DNA of 64,000 bases from Pseudomonas fluorescens (GTDB taxonomy: Bacteria; Pseudomonadota; Gammaproteobacteria; Pseudomonadales; Pseudomonadaceae): NCBI RefSeq assembly GCF_902498185.1, contig NZ_CABVIX010000007.1, positions 1 to 64,000 on the forward strand, in the 5' to 3' direction. The notes beneath the pieces were generated by a model, which did no database searches, had not been told where the DNA came from, and saw nothing but the letters and a program-made list of their open reading frames with translations. The translations under genes were made by a program, and so were the position numbers. Below are positions 1,636-14,488 of this stretch, one piece after another (the first letter of the stretch is position 1; each line of letters opens with the position of its first letter).

Positions 1636-2967
1636 ATGAGGCTCATATTGAAAAGCGTTTCCTTTGAGGGTTTCCAATCGGACAACCGAAAGGCCGTCGT
1701 GCATTTCTCGGGACAGCAAACCTCTATAATATTTGGAGGTAATGGTTGTGGAAAAACGACGTTCCTAAAGCTGCTTCACGCAGTACTTAGCAAGGATAGC
1801 GCTGAGTTAATCAAGGGAAATGTTTTTAGAGTCATCCTTGAGTATGTGGATCAGTTTGATCTGGCGCACATCGTGCGAGTAAAAAGAACAAAAGGGCTAG
1901 CGGAAAACGCAGAAGAACTGTTTCTAGACGATTATGATTGGAGTGAACTGGAGTCTTCATCGCTGACCGAGTCTACCTCACTATCTTTAGGCGTTGAACG
2001 AGGCGTTTCTACTCAAGCGCTTGCCATTGAACCGCTAGACATATCCCGATACCTTAATAGCAATTCGGACGGCATTAAACTGCCAAGGTCTATAGTTCAT
2101 GATCTCTCTGAAAGACTGGCTTATTTTCTAACGCGCCAGAGTACCTTTAGGAATAGGCAGAATACTTTGAGATCGCGGGGTCGCAACAGTGAACTGCAAT
2201 TAGAGCAAGAACATTCCTTGCTGCAAAATATCAACATTAGTAATATCGAAGGGCTACTGGTAGATCGGTATAGGGTGGCCCGAAACTTTGCATCGGAAAA
2301 AATTCAAAACGCGCTATTTGATACGCTCGCTTTAGCTATTGACTCTAACTCAGAACTTCCCGCAAAGCTTACAATGCCTAGCGATCTTGATAGTCAGATT
2401 ATTGCTGGAAAAGAGCGCATAATGGAGGCGCTGGCAGATGGCCCTGAGAACAATTTTAAAGAGCGAGTAATTAATATTCTCGCGGGTATCCAAACCCTTG
2501 AAGATGTGGGTGCAATCACTAACAACGAAATACTTTGCCAGCTCATATGGAACATGCTAAAAGAACTGAAGTTGGAAAAGCAACTACTGAATTCGATTAA
2601 CTTGTTCACTGAAACATTTGACAGCTTCCTTGGGGAGAATAAACGCTTAGCAATAACCCACGAAGGTGTATATATAAAGATAGGCAGTAAAAAACATCAG
2701 ATCGACACCCTTTCAAGTGGCGAGAGACATCTTTTTACCTTTTTGGCGCTGGTGGTTATTGTCGCCAGGGATCGAAATTTCTTGATAATCGACGAACCAG
2801 AAATCTCGCTCAATCCCCAGTGGCAGCGAAGTCTTATTGGCTTGCTGCAGCAACTGGCGCCTGACACCCAGATCATTGTTGCCTCTCATAGCCCAATGCT
2901 GGCTAAAGGAAGGCCAGGTCAGTTAGTTGAGTTGAATCCCGTCGAATTTAACTTCTCGGATTACTGA
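1636..2967 (+). CDS. ariA: AriA, ATPase component of PARIS anti-phage system
   Basis: 443 aa. It is an ABC/OLD-like AAA ATPase: Walker A GGNGCGKT at residues 34-41, a signature-like SSGER at about 360, Walker B FLIIDEPE at about 382-389, and a switch His in ASHS at about 418. In PARIS, AriA is an ATPase scaffold that holds AriB and releases it when it senses a phage anti-restriction protein such as Ocr. Pairing with a DUF4435 partner and matching size support this call. The stop overlaps the ariB start by one base (TGATG). Base composition is clearly AT-rich against the host, which indicates transfer. Other OLD-like ATPase systems pair with different nucleases and fit less well. Confidence 0.8.
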   Translation: MRLILKSVSFEGFQSDNRKAVVHFSGQQTSIIFGGNGCGKTTFLKLLHAVLSKDSAELIKGNVFRVILEYVDQFDLAHIVRVKRTKGLAENAEELFLDDYDWSELESSSLTESTSLSLGVERGVSTQALAIEPLDISRYLNSNSDGIKLPRSIVHDLSERLAYFLTRQSTFRNRQNTLRSRGRNSELQLEQEHSLLQNINISNIEGLLVDRYRVARNFASEKIQNALFDTLALAIDSNSELPAKLTMPSDLDSQIIAGKERIMEALADGPENNFKERVINILAGIQTLEDVGAITNNEILCQLIWNMLKELKLEKQLLNSINLFTETFDSFLGENKRLAITHEGVYIKIGSKKHQIDTLSSGERHLFTFLALVVIVARDRNFLIIDEPEISLNPQWQRSLIGLLQQLAPDTQIIVASHSPMLAKGRPGQLVELNPVEFNFSDY

Positions 2968-3884
2968 TGATGAGCGTGAACTTATTGCAGTATAGCGCAG
3001 ACGAGCTTTTAGGCTTGGCAAGGATCTCGGGGACACCCATCGTCATCGTCGAAGGATTTGATGACGTACCGATCTACGAGCGAATCTCTGATAGCACCTC
3101 CGTGAATTGCTTGATTTTTGCGAGTGAGAATATTCTTTGTGAAGCGGAAGGCTGCGATGGGGTTATAAAAAATATCTCTGTAATCCGCGATACTTGTGAT
3201 GGGTTACCTGTCGAAAAATATGTACTAGGGATAATAGATCGCGACGCAAGATTTTACAGAAATACGATACCTGCTGATCCTGCACTCATGACACTTGATT
3301 TCTACTCGATAGAAAGCCATTTTGTCAGCCGGCAGTCAGTGCGATATTTAATCCCTAGGGTTACACGCGCTACAAATAGACTCTTACAAGAGCAACTCTG
3401 CGATGATATATATAGCCAGCTCCGTGAGCGACTGATGTTTCTTTACCTTGTATCCTTGGAAGCTTTGAAGAAGTCGTGCGTTCAAGGATACCAAGCAGAA
3501 TTCGGATATAAAGATACGATTAAGTCAATTGTCCATAGAAAGCTTCATTTGCAGCTTGAAGTAAAAAAAATAGAGCTTTTAGAGTTTGGGGGATCCTTAG
3601 GGTTAACAGGAAGCTGGCAGGATATTTTAAGAATTTGCAAGGGGAAATGGATACTTGAAATGTTTACCGATGAGCTGTTTGCTAAAATTATTGATTTACC
3701 AAATTTGTGCAAGTTAGCGGAAGTTAATCAGTGCCAATTCTGTGCCAAGGGAGAGGTCTCAAAATGCCTGTATAAAAACCCCTCCTTCTTTAGTGCTGAC
3801 ATCATGAAGAATCAGCTTTTCCATAATATAGAGTGTGACGAGCTCGAGTATGTGCGAGCTCGCATTAATCGATTTATCAACTAA
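2967..3884 (+). CDS. ariB: AriB, Toprim/DUF4435 effector of PARIS
   Basis: 305 aa of the DUF4435 type with a Toprim-like core: Glu29 in IVIVEGFDD, the acidic pair Asp91 and Asp93 in GIIDRDA, and Glu116 in DFYSIESHF. In characterised PARIS systems AriB is the effector released from AriA, and it cleaves host tRNA (tRNA-Lys reported) to stop phage growth. The acidic residues expected for catalysis are present. The C-terminal part has Cys residues in a CQFCAKGEVSKC pattern that could bind metal. An ATGATG start is coupled to ariA. It is AT-rich like ariA. Confidence 0.8.
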   Translation: MMSVNLLQYSADELLGLARISGTPIVIVEGFDDVPIYERISDSTSVNCLIFASENILCEAEGCDGVIKNISVIRDTCDGLPVEKYVLGIIDRDARFYRNTIPADPALMTLDFYSIESHFVSRQSVRYLIPRVTRATNRLLQEQLCDDIYSQLRERLMFLYLVSLEALKKSCVQGYQAEFGYKDTIKSIVHRKLHLQLEVKKIELLEFGGSLGLTGSWQDILRICKGKWILEMFTDELFAKIIDLPNLCKLAEVNQCQFCAKGEVSKCLYKNPSFFSADIMKNQLFHNIECDELEYVRARINRFIN

Positions 3885-5578: not shown

Positions 5579-6910
5579 TTAAGGGGTGGTGGTGGTCAGC
5601 GGCACCAGGCGCATCGAGGTCGGCGCATACACGGCCAGACCAGCGCGCAACTCAGCCAAGATGGTCACCAGGTTGCGGCGGAAGTTGTCGCCATCCATCC
5701 GGCTTGCTTCCACGGTCACTTGCTCGCGGTCGAGCAGCGCCGTGGTGCTGGTGTCGAGGATCAGTGCCCCGAGTTCAGGCATGCCCATGGTGACCACTAC
5801 CGGAGTGCCCCAGAGGCTGGGTGGCGCCGGGTCGCGAGGAGAGCCGATCACATACTGACCGTCACCTTCCTCGGCGCGCTCGCTCTCGATGGCGAACCAA
5901 TCGCGCGGGTTCATCACAATCACGTTAGGGTTCCAACCGGCAGCCTTGAGGTCGGTCAGGGCCAGGCCGATACGGTCTACCGGGCGGCCAGTCAGACCAG
6001 GTGTCGCGGTGGTGGCCTGCTTGATGAATCCGAGAATTTCGCCGGGGCCGCCATCACCGATCAGCAACTCTGCTTCGAGCTTCTGGCGAACACCAACGCT
6101 CATGAGGAGACCGATCTGCTCCTGCAGCTGGGTGTTGTCGTTGAGCACCTGGAGGCTCGCAGGAATCCAGGTAGCGATGGTGGCGATCTCGGCGCGAGAC
6201 ATCTTTGTCGGAAGCTGGCCTTCGGACTTCTCGTCGCCCTCTTTGGCCTGATAGGCAGCCCCGCTCAAGTAGCCATCGAGCTGGACGTACTCATAGGTCG
6301 AGCCCGCGACCGGTACGATCGGCAGTACATCGAGCAGGCTTAGCCGTGGCTGGGGAATGCCCTTGATGCCTGGAGCACGCTCCGGGGCAGTGGGGTAGCT
6401 GGTGGAGCCAGTCGTGCCTTTGTCTGGGTTGGTCAGCGCCGCGCGCATGCTGGTGTCTACGCTCATCTTGCCGGTGGACTTCTGGCCGGCCCGAATGGCC
6501 GTGAGGCCGTCGGCATCCAGCACAGCGGCGCTGATGATGTTGCTGTCCGGGGCGGCACCGGCCTTGCGCTGATTGAAGCCACCCGCGACCGCGCGTTGCT
6601 CCAGCTCCTGCAGGCGAGCGCTGATCTCAGCCTGTTTCTGGCCCTGACCTTCGATAGAGTCTTTGTGTGCTTTCAGTACGGTCGCTAGCTGGCCGATATC
6701 CTGATCCATTTCGCTCATCTCTTGAGTGATGGTAGCCAGGGCATCAGCGCCTCCGGCCGGAGACTGATGCGCTGCCAAAGCTGCTTTGAGCTTGGTCCAG
6801 CGCTTGTCATGATTGGTGTCCATGGGCAATCCCATTTGGGTGGTATGGGCACCACTCCAGCGCGGGGCATGAAGTGGTGTGCAATCCCCCAGCGCACGGC
6901 GTGAGTTCAT
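5579..6910 (-). CDS. Phage major capsid protein, HK97 fold
   Basis: 443 aa from the ATG at 6910, which has AAGGTGG upstream; a GTG at 6940 and ATGs at 6835 and 6823 are alternatives. The first 100 or so residues form a charged, coiled-coil-like scaffold (delta) region. The rest has HK97 features such as GIKGIPQPRLSLLDVLPIVPVAGSTYEY, an A-domain segment NPRDWFAIE and a closing beta segment with the DREQVTVE-type strand. It would form the capsid shell, but no portal, terminase or prohead protease gene is present. The excisionase-like gene and int1 lie just upstream on the same strand. Confidence 0.85.
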   Translation of the reverse strand: MNSRRALGDCTPLHAPRWSGAHTTQMGLPMDTNHDKRWTKLKAALAAHQSPAGGADALATITQEMSEMDQDIGQLATVLKAHKDSIEGQGQKQAEISARLQELEQRAVAGGFNQRKAGAAPDSNIISAAVLDADGLTAIRAGQKSTGKMSVDTSMRAALTNPDKGTTGSTSYPTAPERAPGIKGIPQPRLSLLDVLPIVPVAGSTYEYVQLDGYLSGAAYQAKEGDEKSEGQLPTKMSRAEIATIATWIPASLQVLNDNTQLQEQIGLLMSVGVRQKLEAELLIGDGGPGEILGFIKQATTATPGLTGRPVDRIGLALTDLKAAGWNPNVIVMNPRDWFAIESERAEEGDGQYVIGSPRDPAPPSLWGTPVVVTMGMPELGALILDTSTTALLDREQVTVEASRMDGDNFRRNLVTILAELRAGLAVYAPTSMRLVPLTTTTP

Positions 6911-6972
6911 GGCATCCACCTTATGCGCGCGCACCTGCACGAGTCTCCGTTCAACTCCGACGTGATGCGACG

Positions 6973-7206
6973 CTATGCGGCGGTATTGGTCGCGAACCGT
7001 GCAATATCGGCGATCCGGTAGAAGCGGCGATTACCCCGGCGCACGTAAGGAATGGGTGCCAGGCCATCCGCAGCCAGTCGGCGCAGGTAGCTGGGCGCAT
7101 ACCCCAGCAGGTCTGCCGTGGCGTTCTCAGGCACCAGGCCACCTATCAACGGGGTCACTCCCGCCGCGGTCAAGCGCTCGGCGATCTCCTGCTCGATCTC
7201 ACTCAT
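6973..7206 (-). CDS. Excisionase/AlpA-like DNA-binding protein
   Basis: 77 aa, ATG at 7206 with GGAGG upstream. Residues 24-70 fit a MerR-like winged helix (ENATADLLGYAPSYLRRL, then PYVRRGNRRFYRIADIARF), as in excisionases and AlpA regulators. It lies 32 bases after int1 and 62 bases before the capsid gene. Likely roles are directing int1 towards excision or regulating the capsid gene; the sequence does not decide. Confidence 0.7.
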   Translation of the reverse strand: MSEIEQEIAERLTAAGVTPLIGGLVPENATADLLGYAPSYLRRLAADGLAPIPYVRRGNRRFYRIADIARFATNTAA

Positions 7207-7238: not shown

Positions 7239-8501
7239 TTATTGGCTGTAGGCCGCGCCGTTATTTGGCTGCGCCGGTTGAGATGCGGTTTCGTGTCCCG
7301 CAAATGTCCCGCCGTGAAGGGCGGCGAATCCGTGCTGGTCGAGGTGCTGATGCCAGGCCTCCAACGCTTTGCGCTTCTGGCCCTCGGCATGGGTGTGGAT
7401 GTAGGTCTGATCGAGGTCCTTCATGGCGTGGTTGAGCAGCATCTCGCCAACCATGTAGTCCACGCCCAGGTCTGCCCAGGCGGTGCGGGCAACCTTGCGC
7501 AGGTCGTGGCTGGTCCACTCCCCACGGCCCAGGCTGGCGAACAACGTGCTGGCCTTGGTCGCGCTGATGGCTGCGCCGGGTGCGCCGGGGAACAGGAAGG
7601 GCCCGGCATACCCACCGGCCTGCTGCTGGTCGCGATAGCGCTCGAGCAATGCCCGGGTCTGCGCAGTCAGCGGGAGGGTGTGCTCCGTCTTCGTCTTGGT
7701 GTCGGCGGCGGGGATGAACCAGTGGCCAGTCACCAGGTTGACGTTCTTCCAGCGCGCCAGCCGTGTTTCCCCCAATCGGGTGCCGTGGGCCAGCATCATG
7801 GTCGCCAGCATGGTTGCGATGGGCGCCAGCGCCGAACGATCCCGTAGGAGCGCCAGCAGCACCTTCAGATCGTCCCCGCGCAGCCTCGCGGCCTTGGGCC
7901 GGATGCGGGTCCGCACAAAATCCGTGAACTTCAGGCTCGCCATCGGGTTGACCCCGAGCAGGCCCAGGCGCGCCGCCTGCCTGAACGCCACGGCCAGCAC
8001 CCCATATACCGACCGCACGAATGACAGCGCGAATTGCTCCTGCATGGGCCACATCAGCAGGCGGTCAAGGTTCGCCCGGTCCAGGCCGGCCAGTGGCAGT
8101 TCCTGCAGCCGCGGCACCAGGTGGCAGCGCAGCGCTGACTGGGCGCTGGCCTTGCGCTTGGCGGACAGCCCACGGTCCCGGCCCATCCGGTCGGCGTACC
8201 ACGCCAGCACCTCGCCCACGGTCAACCAGGCACTGATGGTCGACGGAGCAGCAGGTTCTGCCGCCCGGCGCGCGAGGATCGATGGCAGGGTGGCCTGCAT
8301 CAGCTTGGCGTTGATGCTGGGGTAGTTGCCGGCCTTGCCCCACTTGCCGCGCACCACGACGTGCCAGGCGCCCCGGGCACGATCGGCGGTGGAGAATCGG
8401 AACCGGAGTTCAGGGAAGCGCGGATCACGCAGTTGTCGCGCCTGGCCAGCCGCCTGCTTGCGGATCTCGGCGTCCGTGAGGGTGACGTGATTGGTTGTCA
8501 T
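7239..8501 (-). CDS. Tyrosine recombinase, internal second integrase (int1)
   Basis: 420 aa. Catalytic residues are visible: Arg242 in HGTRLGETR, His332 and Arg335 in SHDLRK, His358 in LLNH and Tyr367 in DQTYIH. An N-terminal arm-binding-like domain and a SAM-like core-binding domain precede them. It appears intact. Unlike the integrase at 12984-14195 it is about 6 kb from the nearest att site, in the middle of the element and just after the hairpin array at 8545-8953. It may be a leftover from a second element fused into this one, or a recombinase with its own internal target. Confidence 0.85.
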   Translation of the reverse strand: MTTNHVTLTDAEIRKQAAGQARQLRDPRFPELRFRFSTADRARGAWHVVVRGKWGKAGNYPSINAKLMQATLPSILARRAAEPAAPSTISAWLTVGEVLAWYADRMGRDRGLSAKRKASAQSALRCHLVPRLQELPLAGLDRANLDRLLMWPMQEQFALSFVRSVYGVLAVAFRQAARLGLLGVNPMASLKFTDFVRTRIRPKAARLRGDDLKVLLALLRDRSALAPIATMLATMMLAHGTRLGETRLARWKNVNLVTGHWFIPAADTKTKTEHTLPLTAQTRALLERYRDQQQAGGYAGPFLFPGAPGAAISATKASTLFASLGRGEWTSHDLRKVARTAWADLGVDYMVGEMLLNHAMKDLDQTYIHTHAEGQKRKALEAWHQHLDQHGFAALHGGTFAGHETASQPAQPNNGAAYSQ

Positions 8502-8544
8502 GCTTCGTCCTCACATTGAGGGTGAATAGGGTGGGCTTGCCTGA

Positions 8545-8953
8545 CGTCCGATATTCGGACGACAGCCAGGTCTTGGCAGGGGTGTCGTTTTGTAAAACGA
8601 GACCGCCTTGAATATCCCGCGGCGGGGCTCGATGCGCCGATACCCAGTCGGTCGCAACTCTGCTGTGCAGCAGAATTGAGAAAGAGTGGGAAAATCCCAC
8701 CGATACGGGGTATTTCTTGCGCTGCGGCTGGCAAACCGGGAACTCCCGCTTTGGTCCGCGAAGCAGGAATTCCTGCTTTGAGAAAATCTCTCGGAAAGTG
8801 AGATATGCCGGCGCCGAGATCCATCCACTTTTGGATGCGCTCTCAGTGAGACCACTTTGTCTGTGTGAGGCGTTTTGGTCTCAGTGCGCTCACTTCTGAG
8901 CACATCTGAATCGGACCAAATGAGCCGAGTCAGACCAAAACAGCCGACTCGGC
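8545..8953. repeat. Array of about 12 different short dyads, non-coding
   Basis: The gap between int1 and the 97-aa gene (8502-8983) has no convincing gene but many compact inverted repeats: 8545-8561, 8585-8600, 8616-8626, 8659-8674, 8686-8700, 8703-8713, 8737-8748, 8761-8778 (perfect 18-base palindrome), 8780-8790, 8822-8837, 8847-8883 and 8924-8953. The compact ones have 4-9 bp arms and loops of 0-4 bases, but their sequences differ. A word like AGACCAAAA recurs at about 8849, 8876 (reverse), 8913 and 8932. Confidence 0.65.
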
Positions 8954-8983
8954 AAATGGACTTAGGCGCTAGGCTGCGAGATG

Positions 8984-9277
8984 TCATGGACCCGCCTCCG
9001 CACCTGGCCAGCGGATCCGAATGTCAGCCAGGGCCTCCTCGCGGGTAATCGGCTCGCTGATCATCGTGAAGGGCCGGCACCCTGGCACCAGCACCGTCCA
9101 GTTGCAGCGGCGCTCCAGGCCGTCATTCGCAGCGAGCTCGGCCAGCAGTGTCAGGCGGTTGGCCTTCACGTATTTGCGAACGTCATCAGTAAGCTTCGAA
9201 GCCGGTGACACCCGCACCCGCATACCTTGCTTCTTGGCTGTAAACCCGCGCTCCACCAGGTAATCGATCGCGGCCAT
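8984..9277 (-). CDS. TubC-like docking-domain protein
   Basis: 97 aa. The first half (MAAIDYLVERGFTAKKQGMR, then VSPASKLTDDVRKYVKANR and LLAELAAN) looks like the TubC N-terminal docking fold found in small proteins beside phage and satellite replication genes. The second half is short and basic. The start codon overlaps the repA stop by one base (TAATG), so it is translated with repA. It may be a protein-protein adaptor for the replication complex; this is inference. Confidence 0.65.
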   Translation of the reverse strand: MAAIDYLVERGFTAKKQGMRVRVSPASKLTDDVRKYVKANRLTLLAELAANDGLERRCNWTVLVPGCRPFTMISEPITREEALADIRIRWPGAEAGP

Positions 9278-10569
9278 TACAGGTCCTCCGCGTCATCGTC
9301 CAAGGGCGGGAGGGAGGTTCCATCCGGCAGCGGTCCATTCAGATATTTCATCCAGTCGTGCCCTTTTTCTCCAGTCGTGCCCATGCCCAAGGGTGGGCAC
9401 GACTGGGTTTCAGAGGGCACGACTGGCGCTACGGGTGGGAAAAGAGCGTGCGCGCCATCCGCTTGAGGCAGAGACCAGGTAACAACGGTATCGCCGCCAA
9501 ACCCTGACCGTGCCGTGGTTACCGAGAGGCGCTCGCGTGCATTCCGAATCTGCTTCTGGGTGTAGCCATTGCCTACCATCAGGGCTTTTGCTTCCTTGCC
9601 TGTCAGCGCACCCTTACTCAGGATCCGGCGCAACGCTTCTGCGGGGTCGTCCGAATCATCCAGTCGCGTGTCATCCTCGGGGCCCTCCACATCACCCAGA
9701 ATTTCGCGAGCCGAACCCTGGATCAGATCTCCCCACACAACGCGAGTGGCCTCGATGCCGCCGTCGATGATGAACGGCTCGATCACGTAGGAAACACCAC
9801 CTTCGTCCGTCCCGATGTTCGATTTGGCGCGCGCCAGCACCCGGGCGTCGGAGTCTTCCTGTTTGGCGGCCACCAGCACCGTGCGCGCCAGCGCAGAAAA
9901 AGCCTGCGATCCAATGACACGATCTGCTGGAGAGGAGCCGGCGCCTCCCTTCGCGAAGTGAGAAATGCCCACCACGGCGCAAAGGTTCTGTTCCGCGAAG
10001 TCCACCACGCCCTGCAGGCCTCGGCGCACGTCGTTGGCTTTGTGCATGTCGCCCTTTACTGCGCTCACAACGGGATCGAGCATCAAGAGTGAGATGCCCC
10101 CAATATCGCGCGCGGTCTCACGCAGCAGACCGATATCGTTGCCTGGGTCAAATGGGTCAGATTCCCCCTTGGCATTGATGCGGCCTTGGATGATGTGAAC
10201 CCTGTCCATGTCGGCGCCAGCCGCGATAAGGCGGGGCACCAGGGTGTCGGATGGATCGTCTTCGCTGGACCAGATGAGGACATTGCCGGCCTCCCGGCAA
10301 ATCTCACCATCTGGCCACCTGCCGGCAGTCGTGATCGTCGCAATCAAACCGAGCAGCAGGGTGGTCTTTCCGGTACCGCCGGCGCCAGCGAGAATGTGCA
10401 GCTTTCCTTGCGCCAGCCAGCCCGGCCAGAGCCAGCGGATCGGCACCGGCTTGATGCTCGATGCCTTCACAGCGTTCACTCTCCATGCGGCGGCGGGCGC
10501 AGCGGTGGATTCACGGGTGATTGCGCTCAGCGGTTCAACCCATTCACGGGCAAATCGATCGGTCGTCAT
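9277..10569 (-). CDS. RepA-like replicative helicase (RecA-fold, AAA_25)
   Basis: 430 aa. Walker A AGAGGTGKTT lies at residues 61-70, Walker B SLLMLD at about 160-165, and a GISHFAKGG segment at about 215 fits the hexameric RepA/DnaB-like helicases of broad-host-range plasmids and satellites. It would unwind the element's origin. The start overlaps the upstream primase-fragment stop (ATGA). The extreme C-terminus is encoded within a repeat cluster (9353-9425) whose inverted partner lies upstream of the operon, so the repeats constrain or add to the protein tail. Confidence 0.8.
   Translation of the reverse strand: MTTDRFAREWVEPLSAITRESTAAPAAAWRVNAVKASSIKPVPIRWLWPGWLAQGKLHILAGAGGTGKTTLLLGLIATITTAGRWPDGEICREAGNVLIWSSEDDPSDTLVPRLIAAGADMDRVHIIQGRINAKGESDPFDPGNDIGLLRETARDIGGISLLMLDPVVSAVKGDMHKANDVRRGLQGVVDFAEQNLCAVVGISHFAKGGAGSSPADRVIGSQAFSALARTVLVAAKQEDSDARVLARAKSNIGTDEGGVSYVIEPFIIDGGIEATRVVWGDLIQGSAREILGDVEGPEDDTRLDDSDDPAEALRRILSKGALTGKEAKALMVGNGYTQKQIRNARERLSVTTARSGFGGDTVVTWSLPQADGAHALFPPVAPVVPSETQSCPPLGMGTTGEKGHDWMKYLNGPLPDGTSLPPLDDDAEDL
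9353..9425. repeat. Iteron-like cluster, left copy
   Basis: CAGTCGTGCCC occurs at 9353-9363 and 9372-9382, and its reverse complement at 9395-9405 and 9415-9425, so the block is a large dyad with 19-20 base periodicity. It lies inside the 3' end of repA. An inverted copy of the whole block is at 11773-11845. Confidence 0.75.
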
Positions 10570-10973
10570 ACTACCCCCAGGCGCTTCTTGGCCAATTCGA
10601 AGCGCTGGCGATCGTCACCAGCGAGTTTGCCCTGGGCATCGAGCGATTGGCCGATGCTGTAAACCATGCGCTCGTGCGCAATTGCCTTCTTGCTGGGCCC
10701 GCGGCGCTCACGCTTTTCACCAGGGAACAAATCTCGCAACTCCAGCCCTATCGCCGATACAACTTCTTCCGTTGTGCAACCTGCCCAGCATCGAAGCAGG
10801 ACAACACCGTCCGAAGTTTCCGCAATCGCCAGGCTTGGGCTCTTGTCACTGTGCGCTGGGCAACATGCCTTCCATTTATTGGCGCCAGCAGGTTTAACCT
10901 TGTCCAGACGGTCTAGAACTTTATCCAGGCAAGCCGATCCCATCGGCACAAGTGCGCCGTTTTGATTTTTCAT
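10566..10973 (-). CDS. CHC2-type zinc-finger primase fragment
   Basis: 135 aa. Residues about 37-68 (CCPAHSDKSPSL and LLRCWAGC) form the Cys/His zinc ribbon of DnaG-type primases. The Toprim catalytic domain that normally follows is absent; instead there is a short basic helical tail. It is followed directly by repA with a 4-base overlap. The pair may act like P4 alpha protein or plasmid RepA/RepB', with the zinc finger giving origin recognition. A host or helper primase may supply catalysis. Confidence 0.75.
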   Translation of the reverse strand: MKNQNGALVPMGSACLDKVLDRLDKVKPAGANKWKACCPAHSDKSPSLAIAETSDGVVLLRCWAGCTTEEVVSAIGLELRDLFPGEKRERRGPSKKAIAHERMVYSIGQSLDAQGKLAGDDRQRFELAKKRLGVV

Positions 10974-11284: not shown

Positions 11285-11754
11285 TACACACCCCCTTCAG
11301 ATTCCAGGGCGCGGGCCTGATCCATGTGATGGTTGTAGCGTTTCAAGCGAACAGAAAGGGACGAGTTTGCGCGGAGGGCGCTCAGCGCCATACGGCGGTG
11401 AGCAATTGCGCGAATTGCGGACGGAATGATTTTGGTCATCGTTGGGGCTCCCATTGTTGAGGAGCTGCCACGGTTCGTCGCCAAACGAATTAGGGTGGCA
11501 GCTGTGCGCAGGTTGGCGAACCGGGACAATAGGAACCCGGCAGACCCGAAGGTCTCCCACGCACAGCCGCCATAAACAGGATATGCGGGCACAAAAAAAG
11601 CGCCTGCAATCGAAATGGGGGCGCCTGTGCGCCTATTGTGACTCGGGTCGCCAAACCCGGTCGCTGAATTTGCAGCGACAGGCGAACCATACCGACCATC
11701 ACGGCTGCTTGCAAGTCCGATTATGTGTCGTTCGTTGTGATGGCGCAATGCCAT
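11284..11754 (-). CDS. Ash/Icd-like ORF with internal in-frame start
   Basis: An open frame of 156 aa from the ATG at 11754, or 51 aa from an internal in-frame ATG at 11439 that has GGGAG 8 bases upstream. The long form contains segments such as GRYGSPVAANSATGFG and WETFGSAGFLLSRFANLRTA, which I associate with Ash-family ORFs of satellites and prophages, from memory. The short form is a very basic helical protein (MTKIIPSAIRAIAHRRMAL). P4 encodes Ash and the division inhibitor Icd in the same general position, between the regulator and the replication genes. Only the 51-aa start is well supported by a ribosome binding site. Confidence 0.5.
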   Translation of the reverse strand: MALRHHNERHIIGLASSRDGRYGSPVAANSATGFGDPSHNRRTGAPISIAGAFFVPAYPVYGGCAWETFGSAGFLLSRFANLRTAATLIRLATNRGSSSTMGAPTMTKIIPSAIRAIAHRRMALSALRANSSLSVRLKRYNHHMDQARALESEGGV

Positions 11755-11861: not shown

Positions 11862-12086
11862 TCACGCCACCTCACCACGGCAGGCGGCGATTTGCTCATC
11901 ACACCAGGCATGAACCTCGGCCTCGATCCACACGACGCACTTCGGGCCGAGGGTGACTTGCTTGGGGAAGGCGCCAGCGGCGATACGGCGGTAAATCTCG
12001 GTGCAGGACAGGCCGGTGATCGACTCAACGTCCTGGCGCTTGATGAAGCGGCGAGCGGGTGGGGTGGTGTTGGTAGGGTTAGCCAT
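11862..12086 (-). CDS. alpA: AlpA-family transcriptional regulator
   Basis: 74 aa from the ATG at 12086, chosen because AAGGAGG lies about 8 bases upstream. It matches AlpA/Vis-like winged-helix proteins: RFIKRQDVESITGLSCTEIY, then RIAAGAFPKQVTLGPKCVVW and EAEVHAWCDEQIAA. In P4 and PICI satellites AlpA-type proteins switch on element genes and aid excision. An upstream dyad at 12156-12184 is a candidate operator. Confidence 0.85.
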   Translation of the reverse strand: MANPTNTTPPARRFIKRQDVESITGLSCTEIYRRIAAGAFPKQVTLGPKCVVWIEAEVHAWCDEQIAACRGEVA

Positions 12087-12155
12087 CGTCTGCGCCTCCT
12101 TGGGCGGTTTCGGTAATCGACGATGGCAATGCTGGCGGGTAGTGATCAGAGAGTC

Positions 12156-12184
12156 ATTGCAACTGCAAAAAACAGATTTGCAAT
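12156..12184. promoter_or_regulatory. Dyad upstream of alpA
   Basis: ATTGCAA (12156-12162) and TTGCAAT (12178-12184) form a 7-bp inverted repeat with a 15-base spacer, about 70 bases upstream of the alpA start. It could be a repressor or AlpA operator. Confidence 0.4.
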
Positions 12185-12189
12185 TGCGA

Positions 12190-12987
12190 TCAGGCGCTAG
12201 AGGTATTTCTAAGCCTGGCCAGCTCGGCGTTGGAGTCGCTGAAGTGTTTCTGTAGCGAGCTTTCACTCAGCCCACGAATCCCTGGATTGCGCTCAAGAAC
12301 GGCGCTAATGAGGGATGACTGTGTGTGTTTTTTTCGTTCGCTCGTCGCGGCCTCAAGTAACGCTGCAACGGTAATCCTGAGTGAGGGTGGAAGATTTTCC
12401 TGAGTTGAAAGAAGTTCCGGTTTTTTTGGTGCTGGATCTTCACCAGGTGCAAAGTTGTAAATTGGCTGTTCTACCCATATGCATTGGTCATTGACCATTA
12501 TTTCTACTGTTGGCTTTTCAGGCATTGAATTGCTGTTTGCTTTTTCCGCGATAAAGTAAATGTCCGCAGTTACAGCCATTACCTTGATGTCGTCTGGGTT
12601 GTCATCGTCATGAGGCGAAATATATTGATCAGTTTGACTATCTTTTATTGCGTAAAAGCCGCCGTCTGCATCACGCACGACGTAAGAAGTGCGTGCCAGA
12701 ACTTGTGCCGTATCGCAAGGGAGATAAAAGCCAAGGGAGACCCCGGCAAGATGATCTTCTTCCATGAAGTATCTACCGTCTCTTGCGTGTTGCTCATGAA
12801 GCTCGTTGTCAAACATAGGCTTAAGCTTTACGATTTCACCGTGGCAAGGCCGGAATAGTCGTATCCATCCACCTTCGTAGAGAGACATTAAGTCGTATAT
12901 GTCAACTTTCTCCCCGATCAAGTCGGAAAGCAGTTTTGCAGCGTTCGCCATCGGTAGAACTGACTTAAACTTACTTAGCTTACTCAC
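12190..12987 (-). CDS. Unknown protein coupled to integrase, 265 aa
   Basis: Not recognised. The GTG at 12987 is preferred because GGAG lies about 10 bases upstream and it overlaps the integrase stop (GTGA); an ATG at 12951 lacks a binding site. The N-terminal half (LLSDLIGEKVDIYDLM, SLYEGGWIRLF) and a middle beta-rich part precede a C-terminal helical region (LRITVAALLEAATSERKK, LSESSLQKHFSD) that could be a DNA-binding or oligomerisation domain. It is less GC-rich than the flanking integrase, suggesting cargo. Its place between int and alpA is a usual slot for accessory genes. Confidence 0.7.
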   Translation of the reverse strand: MSKLSKFKSVLPMANAAKLLSDLIGEKVDIYDLMSLYEGGWIRLFRPCHGEIVKLKPMFDNELHEQHARDGRYFMEEDHLAGVSLGFYLPCDTAQVLARTSYVVRDADGGFYAIKDSQTDQYISPHDDDNPDDIKVMAVTADIYFIAEKANSNSMPEKPTVEIMVNDQCIWVEQPIYNFAPGEDPAPKKPELLSTQENLPPSLRITVAALLEAATSERKKHTQSSLISAVLERNPGIRGLSESSLQKHFSDSNAELARLRNTSSA

Positions 12988-14195
12988 TGCGCAGCACTCC
13001 GAATAGAAACTACATTGGCACCAGCGCAAAGGGCGTCAACTTCATCTGCCCAGCTCTGCATCATCCCTCGTCGCTGATCCAAGTAGTGCGCATGGTTGTA
13101 GGTGTCTCGAATCGAGTCCTGATCACCGTGGGCCAGCTGCCGCTCGATCCAGTCACGGTTGTAGCCTCGGGTGTTGAGGCTAGTGCTCAGTAGATGGCGG
13201 AAGCCGTGCCCGGTCTGGCGCCCTTCGTAGCCCATCGTGGCCAGCGCCTTGTTCACTGTGTTCTCGCTCATCGGTCTGGCCCGGTCGTTGCGCCCAGGGA
13301 AGGCGAGAGGGTAGGTGCCGGTGATCTCGCTCAAGGAGCGCAGCAGTACAACAGCCTGGCGGGGGAGCGGGACGATGTGAGGGCGGCGTGCCTTCATCCG
13401 TGCTGCTGGGATAGTCCAGGTTGCTGACTCCAGGTCGAACTCATCCCAGGGCGCCAGCCGCAGCTCGCCCGGACGCACGGCTGTCAGTAGCAGCAGGCGA
13501 ATAGCGATCTTGCTGGTGAAGTCGCACTGGGCTGTCTCCAGCGTTGCCAGCAGGGCAGGAAGCTCGGCTTCTGATACGTGCGGGTGGTGGCGAGTGCGCG
13601 GGGCGTGCGCGGCTACCACGTCCAGATCGGTGGCGGGGTTGCCGGGCACCACGCCCTTGGCCAGGCCGAAGCGAAAGATCTGGCTTAGCCACTGACGAAC
13701 CTTGCGGGCGACGTTGAACGCCTCGCGGCGCTCGATCTTGCGCACCAGGTCTACCAGCTCAGGACGTTGGACCTCGGCAGCCGGCCGCTTTCCAATTACA
13801 GGGAAAATGTCCGATTGCAGGTATTGCAGGGCTTTCGATGCGGTGGCCGGCGCCCAGCGCGGCTGGTTGTAGTCATACCACTCCCGCGCCAGCGCTTCGA
13901 AGGTCAGCACCTGAGCCGCTGCTGCCGCTTTCTCCTGCTGCTTATGGGCGCTTGGATCAATTCCCTGCGCCAGCAGCTTTCGCGCTGTATCGCGGCGCTC
14001 CCGGGCCTGGGCGAGGGTGATGGACGGGTACGCGCCCAGGCCGAGCATCTTCGCCTTTCCATCGAATCTGTAGCGCAGGCGCCACAGCTTGCCGCCCGCG
14101 GTGGTGACCTCCAGGCACAGCCCGAGTGAATCGGCGAGGCGATAGAGCTTGTCGCGGGGTTTGGCGGTGCGGATGGCGGTATCTGTCAGCGCCAT
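12984..14195 (-). CDS. int: P4-type tyrosine integrase
   Basis: 403 aa with an N-terminal DUF4102 arm-binding domain (residues 1-85), a core-binding domain and a catalytic domain. Active-site residues are visible: Arg241 in AVRPGELR, His330 and Arg333 in GHGFRH, His356 in LAHG and Tyr366 in RDTYNHAHYL. It lies about 210 bases from tRNA-Leu with arm-type repeats in between, so it is the enzyme that integrates this element into the tRNA 3' end. P4 uses the equivalent tRNA-Leu in E. coli. Confidence 0.92.
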   Translation of the reverse strand: MALTDTAIRTAKPRDKLYRLADSLGLCLEVTTAGGKLWRLRYRFDGKAKMLGLGAYPSITLAQARERRDTARKLLAQGIDPSAHKQQEKAAAAAQVLTFEALAREWYDYNQPRWAPATASKALQYLQSDIFPVIGKRPAAEVQRPELVDLVRKIERREAFNVARKVRQWLSQIFRFGLAKGVVPGNPATDLDVVAAHAPRTRHHPHVSEAELPALLATLETAQCDFTSKIAIRLLLLTAVRPGELRLAPWDEFDLESATWTIPAARMKARRPHIVPLPRQAVVLLRSLSEITGTYPLAFPGRNDRARPMSENTVNKALATMGYEGRQTGHGFRHLLSTSLNTRGYNRDWIERQLAHGDQDSIRDTYNHAHYLDQRRGMMQSWADEVDALCAGANVVSIRSAAQ

Positions 14196-14402: not shown

Positions 14403-14427
14403 ATGGTGCCCCGAGGGAGACTCGAAC
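14403..14427. repeat. Right attachment site within tRNA-Leu
   Basis: The 3' end of the intact tRNA gene, sharing 18 identical bases with the left site. The run encoding the acceptor stem has four C here and three at the left site. Confidence 0.85.
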
Positions 14428-14488
14428 TCCCACTCCTTTCGAAAACGGATTTTGAATCCGCCGCGTCTACCAATTCCGCCATCAGGGC
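14404..14488 (-). tRNA. tRNA-Leu, anticodon CAA
   Basis: 85 bases including an encoded CCA. The loop TTCAAAA flanked by GGA/TCC gives anticodon CAA (UUG codon). A long variable arm and the T-arm GTTCGAGTC are present. The acceptor stem GCCCTGA pairs with TCGGGGC (one G-T). It is the integration target of the satellite, and its 3' end is now supplied by element DNA. Confidence 0.93.

Follow-up and report, generated by a model that had tools for sequence, protein, structure and literature searches.

A palindrome array in a Pseudomonas phage satellite, with predicted binding sites for several protein families of helper phages

Results

Gene content of the satellite element

The window analysed here (i.e. 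the whole 64 kb stretch of Pseudomonas fluorescens DNA) was shown to contain an element of 13.9 kb, bounded by a 19-base exact repeat of the tRNA-Leu end (528-546 and 14410-14428). The left copy (528-546) represents the attachment repeat, its 19 bp matching exactly the 3' portion of tRNA-Leu (CAA; 14404-14488, complementary strand; ARAGORN and Rfam), the satellite integration site. Next to the tRNA, and on the same strand, is located int2, which encodes a tyrosine integrase (12984-14195; Phage_integrase 3.4e-23, Arm-DNA-bind_3 4.7e-29); this strand also carries an AlpA regulator gene (11862-12266; Phage_AlpA 2.5e-16), a C4 antisense RNA with its a1/b1 target, as in P4-type immunity (11491-11692; RF01695 88 bits, RF03163 62 bits), and genes for a zinc-ribbon primase-like protein (10566-10973; Zn_ribbon_DnaG 2e-4, below the Pfam cut-off; PHROG DNA primase 9e-18) and a RepA-type AAA helicase (9277-10569; AAA_25 1.5e-33). 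These are followed by a gene for a 97-aa protein (8984-9277, complementary strand), which locus comparison showed to be retained downstream of the helicase gene in related satellites and for which no Pfam or PHROG match was obtained.

On the other side of the array described below, the same strand encodes Int1, a tyrosine recombinase (7239-8501; profile search), a small helix-turn-helix protein (6973-7206; HTH_17 4e-5, below cut-off) and a phage capsid protein (5579-6940; Phage_capsid 8.9e-31). A PARIS-like defence pair, AriA (2.1e-29) and AriB (9.3e-10), was identified by PADLOC at 1636-3884, and the element also holds a tail-assembly gene. With an integrase beside a tRNA and att direct repeats, an AlpA-family regulator, a C4 antisense RNA and its own primase/helicase replication module, the element is, as judged from its predicted genes, a P4/PICI-like phage satellite. 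The full phages Hali, Solano, VW-6S and PseuP_224 carry relatives of int1 within the replication region, downstream of helicase or replication genes, and phage Solano has a separate integrase near its end besides its int1 relative; Int1 may act as a resolvase and not as an integrase.

A dense array of dissimilar palindromes

The array, consisting of 12 palindromes and O-type repeats, occupies the intergenic stretch 8502-8983, downstream of the helicase and 97-aa genes and upstream of int1. An earlier, sequence-only reading had described positions 8545-8953 as a non-coding run of dense, dissimilar dyads. The region indeed falls within the intergenic stretch, and the comparison with shuffled sequence, now performed, revealed 11 non-overlapping inverted repeats (exact arms of at least 5, loop of at most 8) against 2.98±1.62 (maximum 8) in 200 dinucleotide shuffles, an excess that rules out a chance origin of the dyads. 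With stricter arms of at least 6, six dyads were observed vs 0.86 (maximum 4) in the shuffles, and a 410-base stretch starting at 8451 or 8501 ranked highest in the 64 kb window for paired bases (arms of at least 6). The array was found to extend beyond the earlier start at 8545, with an extra palindrome at 8509-8521, and the total of 12 dyads across 8502-8983 was equalled by none of 200 shuffles. The perfect 18-base palindrome reported at 8761-8778 proved exact, and the AGACCAAA-like words in both orientations were recovered with a loose pattern at 8850 (+), 8874 (-), 8914 (+) and 8933 (+); the same loose pattern yielded a fifth word at 8750 (-), before the final 100 bases of 8545-8953.

Palindromic sites on double-stranded DNA suit these dyads better than RNA hairpins, because several have loops of 0-2 bases, and covariance models returned no Rfam family at gathering score in the array stretch. 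The dyads are best read as predicted double-strand protein sites rather than as hairpins. A dispersed genomic repeat was considered and rejected, since the window copy was the only match when the DNA was searched against the genome from which it comes (E<=0.001). Searches with the whole stretch returned homologues as short pieces only, in two phage records and one plasmid record.

O-type repeats in the array

A DNA search of 199 genomes returned, outside the own genome, short matches only. One set of repeats (set 1, 8904-8953), detected by this DNA search, comprises two 19-bp units with GGACCAAA/AGACCAAA and the palindrome 8943-8953, and positions 8921-8953 within it matched genome G163 (locus L004) at 94% over 33 nt. 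Set 2 (8841-8886), which includes the palindrome 8841-8851, matched loci L002 and L003 at 87% over 46 nt. Both pairs of matches (8841-8886 and 8921-8953) fall inside O-like initiator genes, of which that in L004 was assigned to Phage_rep_O (2e-12) and the others by sequence; a weak match to the array in phage FBPa47 is likewise located inside an O-like gene. Repeats of phage lambda-type O genes are components of replication origins, and repeats of this kind are present in the array. The phage O genes carry two repeat words 54 bases apart in five of five cases, whereas the spacings in the array differ. No O gene was detected among the ORFs of the element scanned with Pfam and PHROG, and no strongly AT-rich stretch adjoins the O repeats of the array, where the GC fraction falls to 0.51-0.54.

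In G163 (C1 1032342-1046220), a satellite of the same family was observed, and ~10 kb away from it a prophage has an O gene with these repeats and a relative of int1. This may perhaps represent a satellite beside a helper.

Palindromes at a fixed codon position in rha and kilA-N genes

A near-copy of the 18-base palindrome was found inside a kilA-N gene (L007, identical to L155). When viral contigs were scanned for a palindrome of type GATGNGCTCANNNNTGAGCNCATC, known from the related gaps described below, 46 stretches were obtained, and most of the matches were seen by eye to fall in the coding motif D-V/A-L-S/K-F-E-H/R-I of rha-like genes. Rha (PF09669) and KilA-N (PF04383) genes were then collected by protein family, blind to palindromes, and viral contigs were searched by protein. 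Inverted repeats with arms of at least 6 were present in one 7-codon window in 62 of 99 unique Pseudomonas rha genes (among the matches listed), compared with 5.7 expected from synonymous recoding (maximum 12 at this position and 17 in any window, 100 runs); the remaining 37 of the 99 lack such a palindrome in the window. For kilA-N, 13 of 49 genes were positive vs 1.5 expected from synonymous recoding (maximum 5 there, 10 anywhere). Joint sets of viral contigs and the first Pseudomonas genes agree with these results (18/37 vs 2.2, 21/31 vs 2.5 and 14/48 vs 1.4). The rha set consisted of 29 of 36 places plus 101 further places among the matches listed, not in strict rank order, and the kilA-N set of 16 plus 39 places; the viral sets represent the best 80 of 587, 490 and 595 matches. 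Four genes (L149, L159, L165 and L167) were dropped before the 62/99 and 13/49 counts, being cut short, empty, interrupted or short.

The sequences of the palindromes vary widely and their codon position is fixed, both in rha (L122-L151, L171-L250 and L412-L511) and in kilA-N (L152-L170 and L512-L550). In the three phages in which a Rha palindrome was found (PS-1, MD8 and Solano), it occurs once per genome, in the rha gene (3/3), while the rha gene of phage MR13 has no long-armed palindrome at the position. Support for in-gene sites is weaker for KilA-N than for Rha.

Co-variation of Rha residues with palindrome bases

Upstream of the palindrome-coding stretch, Rha proteins carry a motif, H-x1-x2-V-x3-x4, which looks like a putative recognition helix. 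Residue x2 was shown to be associated with the second base of the half-site core (D with G in 10/10, H with C in 15/16 and N with T in 47/47 cases), and residue x4 with the third (R with C in 54/55, K with T in 9/11 and A, S or V with G in 6/7). The mutual information amounted to 1.19 bits for x2 and base 2 (shuffle maximum 0.17) and to 0.82 bits for x4 and base 3 (maximum 0.29); that of x1 and base 1 was likewise above the shuffles (0.81 vs 0.41), and the crossed pairs (x2 with base 3, x4 with base 2) lay inside the shuffle range. These counts were made on the 73 even-centred palindromes among 92 unique of 110 parsed genes, drawn from 130 Pseudomonas rha genes (among the matches listed) and 80 viral rha genes (the best 80), with the exclusion of genes without a palindrome at the position or without the helix motif and of odd-centred palindromes. 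Two Rha subfamilies that are dissimilar to each other show the same code, an argument against common descent as its sole cause, with the proviso that relatedness inflates the counts.

Twelve phage genes were added later, i.e. one from Pseudomonas, four from Vibrio and one each from phages of Acinetobacter, Oceanospirillum, Aeromonas, Edwardsiella, Proteus, Salmonella and Escherichia. Both rules of the code were obeyed by all ten scorable genes, all from the eight non-Pseudomonas genera, with the Salmonella and Escherichia genes sharing one palindrome; phiV208 and KLEP17-4, which have no palindrome with arms of at least 5, were left unscored. Because it co-varies with the putative recognition helix, the in-gene palindrome of rha is very probably the binding site of the encoded protein itself. 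Phage HK022 Roi reportedly binds a site within its own gene, and Roi and the Rha proteins of P22 and phi80 are said to be related antirepressor-type phage proteins.

Array palindromes match the in-gene palindromes

The sequence-only reading had proposed that structure rather than sequence is kept in the array. This is not supported, as nine of the 12 palindromes match in-gene palindromes of phage rha and kilA-N genes by sequence and the Rha in-gene palindromes follow a protein-DNA code. Each of the nine scored better against the in-gene library than its own symmetric shuffles (p<=0.013 each, the p values being bounded by 300 shuffles).

Four of the nine are of the Rha type. The first, CCTCACATTGAGG (8509-8521; score 15, p=0.007, rha L502), ends 7 bases before the int1 start codon. 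The second, GTGTCGTTTT..AAAACGAGAC (8581-8604, palindrome from 8585; score 19, p=0.003), possesses unlike half-site ends, GTGTC/GAGAC, which are the same as those in rha genes L151 and L431. A CATCCA-type site (8822-8837; score 16, p=0.003, rha L433) and the GCTCA-type site GCTCACTTCTGAGC, with degenerate outer flanks (8888-8901; score 17, p=0.003, rha L139), complete this group. The five KilA-N-type sites are CGTCCGATATTCGGACG (8545-8561; score 15, p=0.003, kilA-N L534), TCTGCTG..CAGCAGA (8659-8674; score 12, p=0.013, kilA-N L162), GTGGGAAAATCCCAC (8686-8700; score 13, p=0.003, kilA-N L521), CGGGAACTCCCG (8737-8748; score 20, p=0.003, kilA-N L523) and GCAGGAATTCCTGC, the perfect 18-base palindrome (8761-8778; score 23, p=0.003, kilA-N L155). 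The other three comprise the two palindromes within the O-type repeats and a weak palindrome without library match, CCCGCGGCGGG (8616-8626; p=0.88).

As a control, 13 of 250 hairpins sampled elsewhere in the window passed p<0.05 (about 5%), and seven of 602 window hairpins outside the array scored at least 12. Against a control of 694 hairpins (95th percentile 10, 99th percentile 16.1, maximum 25), the nine matches had p values of 0.006 to 0.030; these hairpins are partly from phages that possibly carry rha, and the 602-hairpin control is the cleaner one. The library windows (codons 29-37 for rha and 43-62 for kilA-N, with loops of at most 8 and 9, respectively) were set after the genes and several of the matches had been seen by eye.

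The highest score of the 602 hairpins outside the array (24) belongs to an extra, near-perfect Rha-type palindrome, GGGGTATCCTCAGATTTGAGGACACCCC (1324-1351, core 1329-1344), between an ORF (728-1312) and the AriA gene. This palindrome is possibly an operator of the AriA/AriB defence genes.

Arrays at related and unrelated loci

Eleven other loci were found to have the order helicase, 97-aa gene, gap and int1, and two more (L025 and L026) have the 97-aa gene, gap and int1 without a match to the helicase of the window. The gaps in related loci are 237-407 bases long. A dyad excess was clear in eight of 14 gaps (the observed number being reached by at most 4 of 200 shuffles) and not significant in six, where 15 to 182 of 200 shuffles reached it.

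The library test was performed on 12 of 15 stretches, L024, L027 and L052 being left out as near-duplicates; the arrays of related satellites are mutually non-independent. Matches were obtained for 4/9 palindromes in L009, 4/5 in L010 and 4/6 in L054. In L595 and L596, which are additional to these stretches, the numbers were 5/7 and 3/5, with 0/2 in the stretch adjoining that of L596. Among the L022-type gaps, the numbers were 2/5 (L022), 3/4 (L023), 0/2 (L025), 2/5 (L026), 2/5 (L053), 3/5 (L055), 3/4 (L056) and 4/5 (L058), with those of L022, L023 and L055 each including one low-complexity match; the match of the L022-type palindrome CGAGCGCTCG to L532, being of low complexity, was not counted as support. 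Most L022-type gaps (L022-L024, L027, L052, L055 and L056) share a 13-bp inverted repeat, CGCCACTGTGTAG, with arms ~23 bases apart, which is absent from the window.

The order and content of the palindromes vary between arrays and the vocabulary is partly common. Ten close relatives, when aligned, share the O-type repeats as well as the palindrome preceding int1, while the middle differs. A TAACG palindrome (type GTAACGGTGCGAGCGTTAC) recurs as variants in L009, L010, L054, L595 and L596, the last two of which were located through it. The exact L009 version was found in genomes G137 and G048 only, each time inside another array, and no phage gene that owns this palindrome was found. For L595 and L596, the dyad excess alone was not significant (five dyads each, shuffle maxima 6 and 7). 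The L595 array (L595:8380-8930) lies between chromosomal genes, on the side of an MPAB oxygenase and an MFS transporter, with no phage gene among five ORFs scanned. Locus L596 contains integrase, excisionase/HTH_17-type regulator, tail-assembly and capsid genes, whereas neither a helicase nor a primase could be recognised in the scanned ORFs. Its array (L596:8980-10193) adjoins a gene for a 134-aa winged-helix protein that resembles O-type initiators (PHROG replication initiation, 3.3e-7). A counterpart of int1 was not detected in L596 by tblastn (E<=1e-3), and the only match in L054, at 24%, is its int2.

Discussion

A replication signal, one of the candidates of the sequence-only reading, is still among the better explanations for the array. 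Predicted sites of helper proteins appear to be gathered here in one cis-acting module, for which a multi-specific origin is the most likely role; we hold this reading with about even confidence. The satellite would have collected the sites of several unrelated helper initiator or antirepressor proteins in a single module. The early DNA-binding protein (Rha, KilA-N or O) of an entering or induced helper would bind the satellite, and helper initiator complexes would start or boost its replication, with the array acting as a multi-specific origin beside, or instead of, the satellite's own origin.

Such an origin, or a replication enhancer, is favoured because the array lies 3' of the replication genes, contains O repeats and includes sites of the Rha type, of which each of the three phages with a Rha palindrome has one only. 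The L596 array, adjoining the gene of an O-like protein at a locus whose scanned ORFs revealed neither helicase nor primase, is also in favour of an origin, as is the lack of a sigma-70-like promoter in the stretch of the window. The spacing of the O repeats, unlike that in phage genes, and the lack of a strongly AT-rich stretch alongside them argue against it, as does the presence of the element's own helicase and primase-like genes. Rha and KilA-N, moreover, are annotated as antirepressors, without a proven initiator role; phage MD8 has an O-like protein in addition to Rha, and the rha gene of PS-1 is located among late genes. The reading is further weakened by the six gaps with a non-significant dyad excess, by the low numbers of library matches in some relatives and by the rha genes that lack the palindrome.

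The comparison with known origins is similarly divided. In phage lambda-type origins, the initiator repeats are located inside the initiator's own gene, O, and two blocks of the array match such repeats; in the satellite, however, the repeats lie outside any O gene, with other spacing and beside the sites of other protein families. According to PMC6092414, a PICI origin sits immediately 3' of the replication gene and consists of two iteron sets around an AT-rich stretch, for the island's own Rep. The array resembles this Gram-negative PICI origin by its position 3' of the replication genes and before the interference and capsid genes, yet it differs by its dozen unlike palindromes and by the 97-aa gene between helicase and array; when checked for PICI-type origin features, the array was found to have a GC fraction of 0.51-0.59 and palindromes that are mutually unlike. 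The satellite phiAH14b (PMC4936722, KU708005), like P4-like satellites, has a tRNA-type integrase, AlpA, primase/helicase and a non-coding gap after a helicase-like gene, all of which the element shares, and a C4 RNA is present in the window's element as well. The corresponding gap of phiAH14b (L552:9290-9530), in contrast, holds GGGGAACAG-type repeats, which are a probable origin of AH14b itself, and no such array, for which reason the published helper-satellite pair AH14a/AH14b was rejected as a parallel. In AH14a, no Rha or KilA-N was detected in the five genes scanned.

We give a little less than even credence to the array being a heritable, modular library of the helpers' self-encoded sites, which would serve as a universal origin or induction switch for almost any helper. 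In this view, the units are gained, lost and re-ordered, and each would be recognised by a Rha, KilA-N or O protein from another lineage of phages.

Two other roles would be consistent with the same predicted binding. One, rather unlikely, is a helper-sensing transcription switch, by which helper proteins turn the int1-HTH-capsid or the replication operon on or off. The array is situated just 5' of int1-HTH-capsid in loci like that of the window, and in L054 and L596 it precedes the capsid block; both positions would fit a switch, as would the single Rha-type site before the AriA/AriB genes. Satellites and islands are also known to answer helper factors, e.g. SGI1 and AcaCD (PMC7826253), and PICI alpA expression rises with the helper (PMC6092414). 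However, no promoter-like site was found in the array stretch in a scan for the sigma-70 consensus only, the palindrome nearest to int1 is, at 7 bases from the start codon, too close for int1 activation, and a dozen sites over 480 bp would be unusual for one promoter.

Less probable still is a decoy, or sponge, in which the array titrates the early regulators of many phages and thereby weakens helper or competing phages. With a single site per phage (3/3 examined), even a few extra copies could compete, and both the PARIS-like defence pair of the satellite and the L595 array, located between chromosomal genes, would be compatible with such a role. One copy per site in an integrated element would nevertheless be a weak sponge until replication, and a decoy does not need the recurrent position after replication genes.

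Three further explanations fare poorly. That the palindromes are recombination linkers, i.e. short stretches common to phages that promote satellite-phage module exchange, is improbable: flanking letters are shared beside some sites (e.g. L010 and rha L485), but the likeness is centred on the palindromes, changed letters are tolerated if symmetry and half-site stay, and the compared stretches contain no neighbouring gene sequence. The multi-hairpin RNA or single-strand DNA signal suggested by the sequence-only reading could account for the excess of compact dyads, but it is very improbable in view of the short loops of several dyads and the lack of an Rfam match, the sequence match to putative protein sites and the gain or loss of individual units from one relative to another; no finding called for a single-strand replication or packaging signal. 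An att or resolution site at which Int1 would recombine, for which the adjoining position of int1 speaks, can be virtually dismissed, as arrays of the same vocabulary occur near a capsid gene in L054 and L596 without an int1 counterpart (tblastn), the palindromes are many and unlike, and the att repeats of the element are at the tRNA.

Individual cis elements by which satellites and islands respond to a helper are known. SGI1 and its IncC helper (PMC7826253) represent an island that uses the helper's activator, as is proposed here; that system involves one helper and one activator, whereas the array carries predicted sites for at least three protein families with many specificities. Neither a family-wide residue-base code nor the gathering of such sites by a satellite was met in the open-licence PMC literature searched. 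A collection of predicted sites for three or more unrelated families of helper proteins was likewise not encountered in the open-licence papers searched.

An array of helper-protein sites would provide a direct and testable answer to the question of how one satellite exploits unrelated helper phages, and satellite-helper pairs would become predictable from sequence; if true, a satellite's array could be used, by means of the Rha code, to predict the range of its helpers. For the phages, a putative operator of their own, often present inside the coding sequence of rha and kilA-N, would account for the transfer of these genes from phage to phage as self-contained modules, and the simple residue-base code in Rha gives the poorly understood 'antirepressors' a predicted DNA target.
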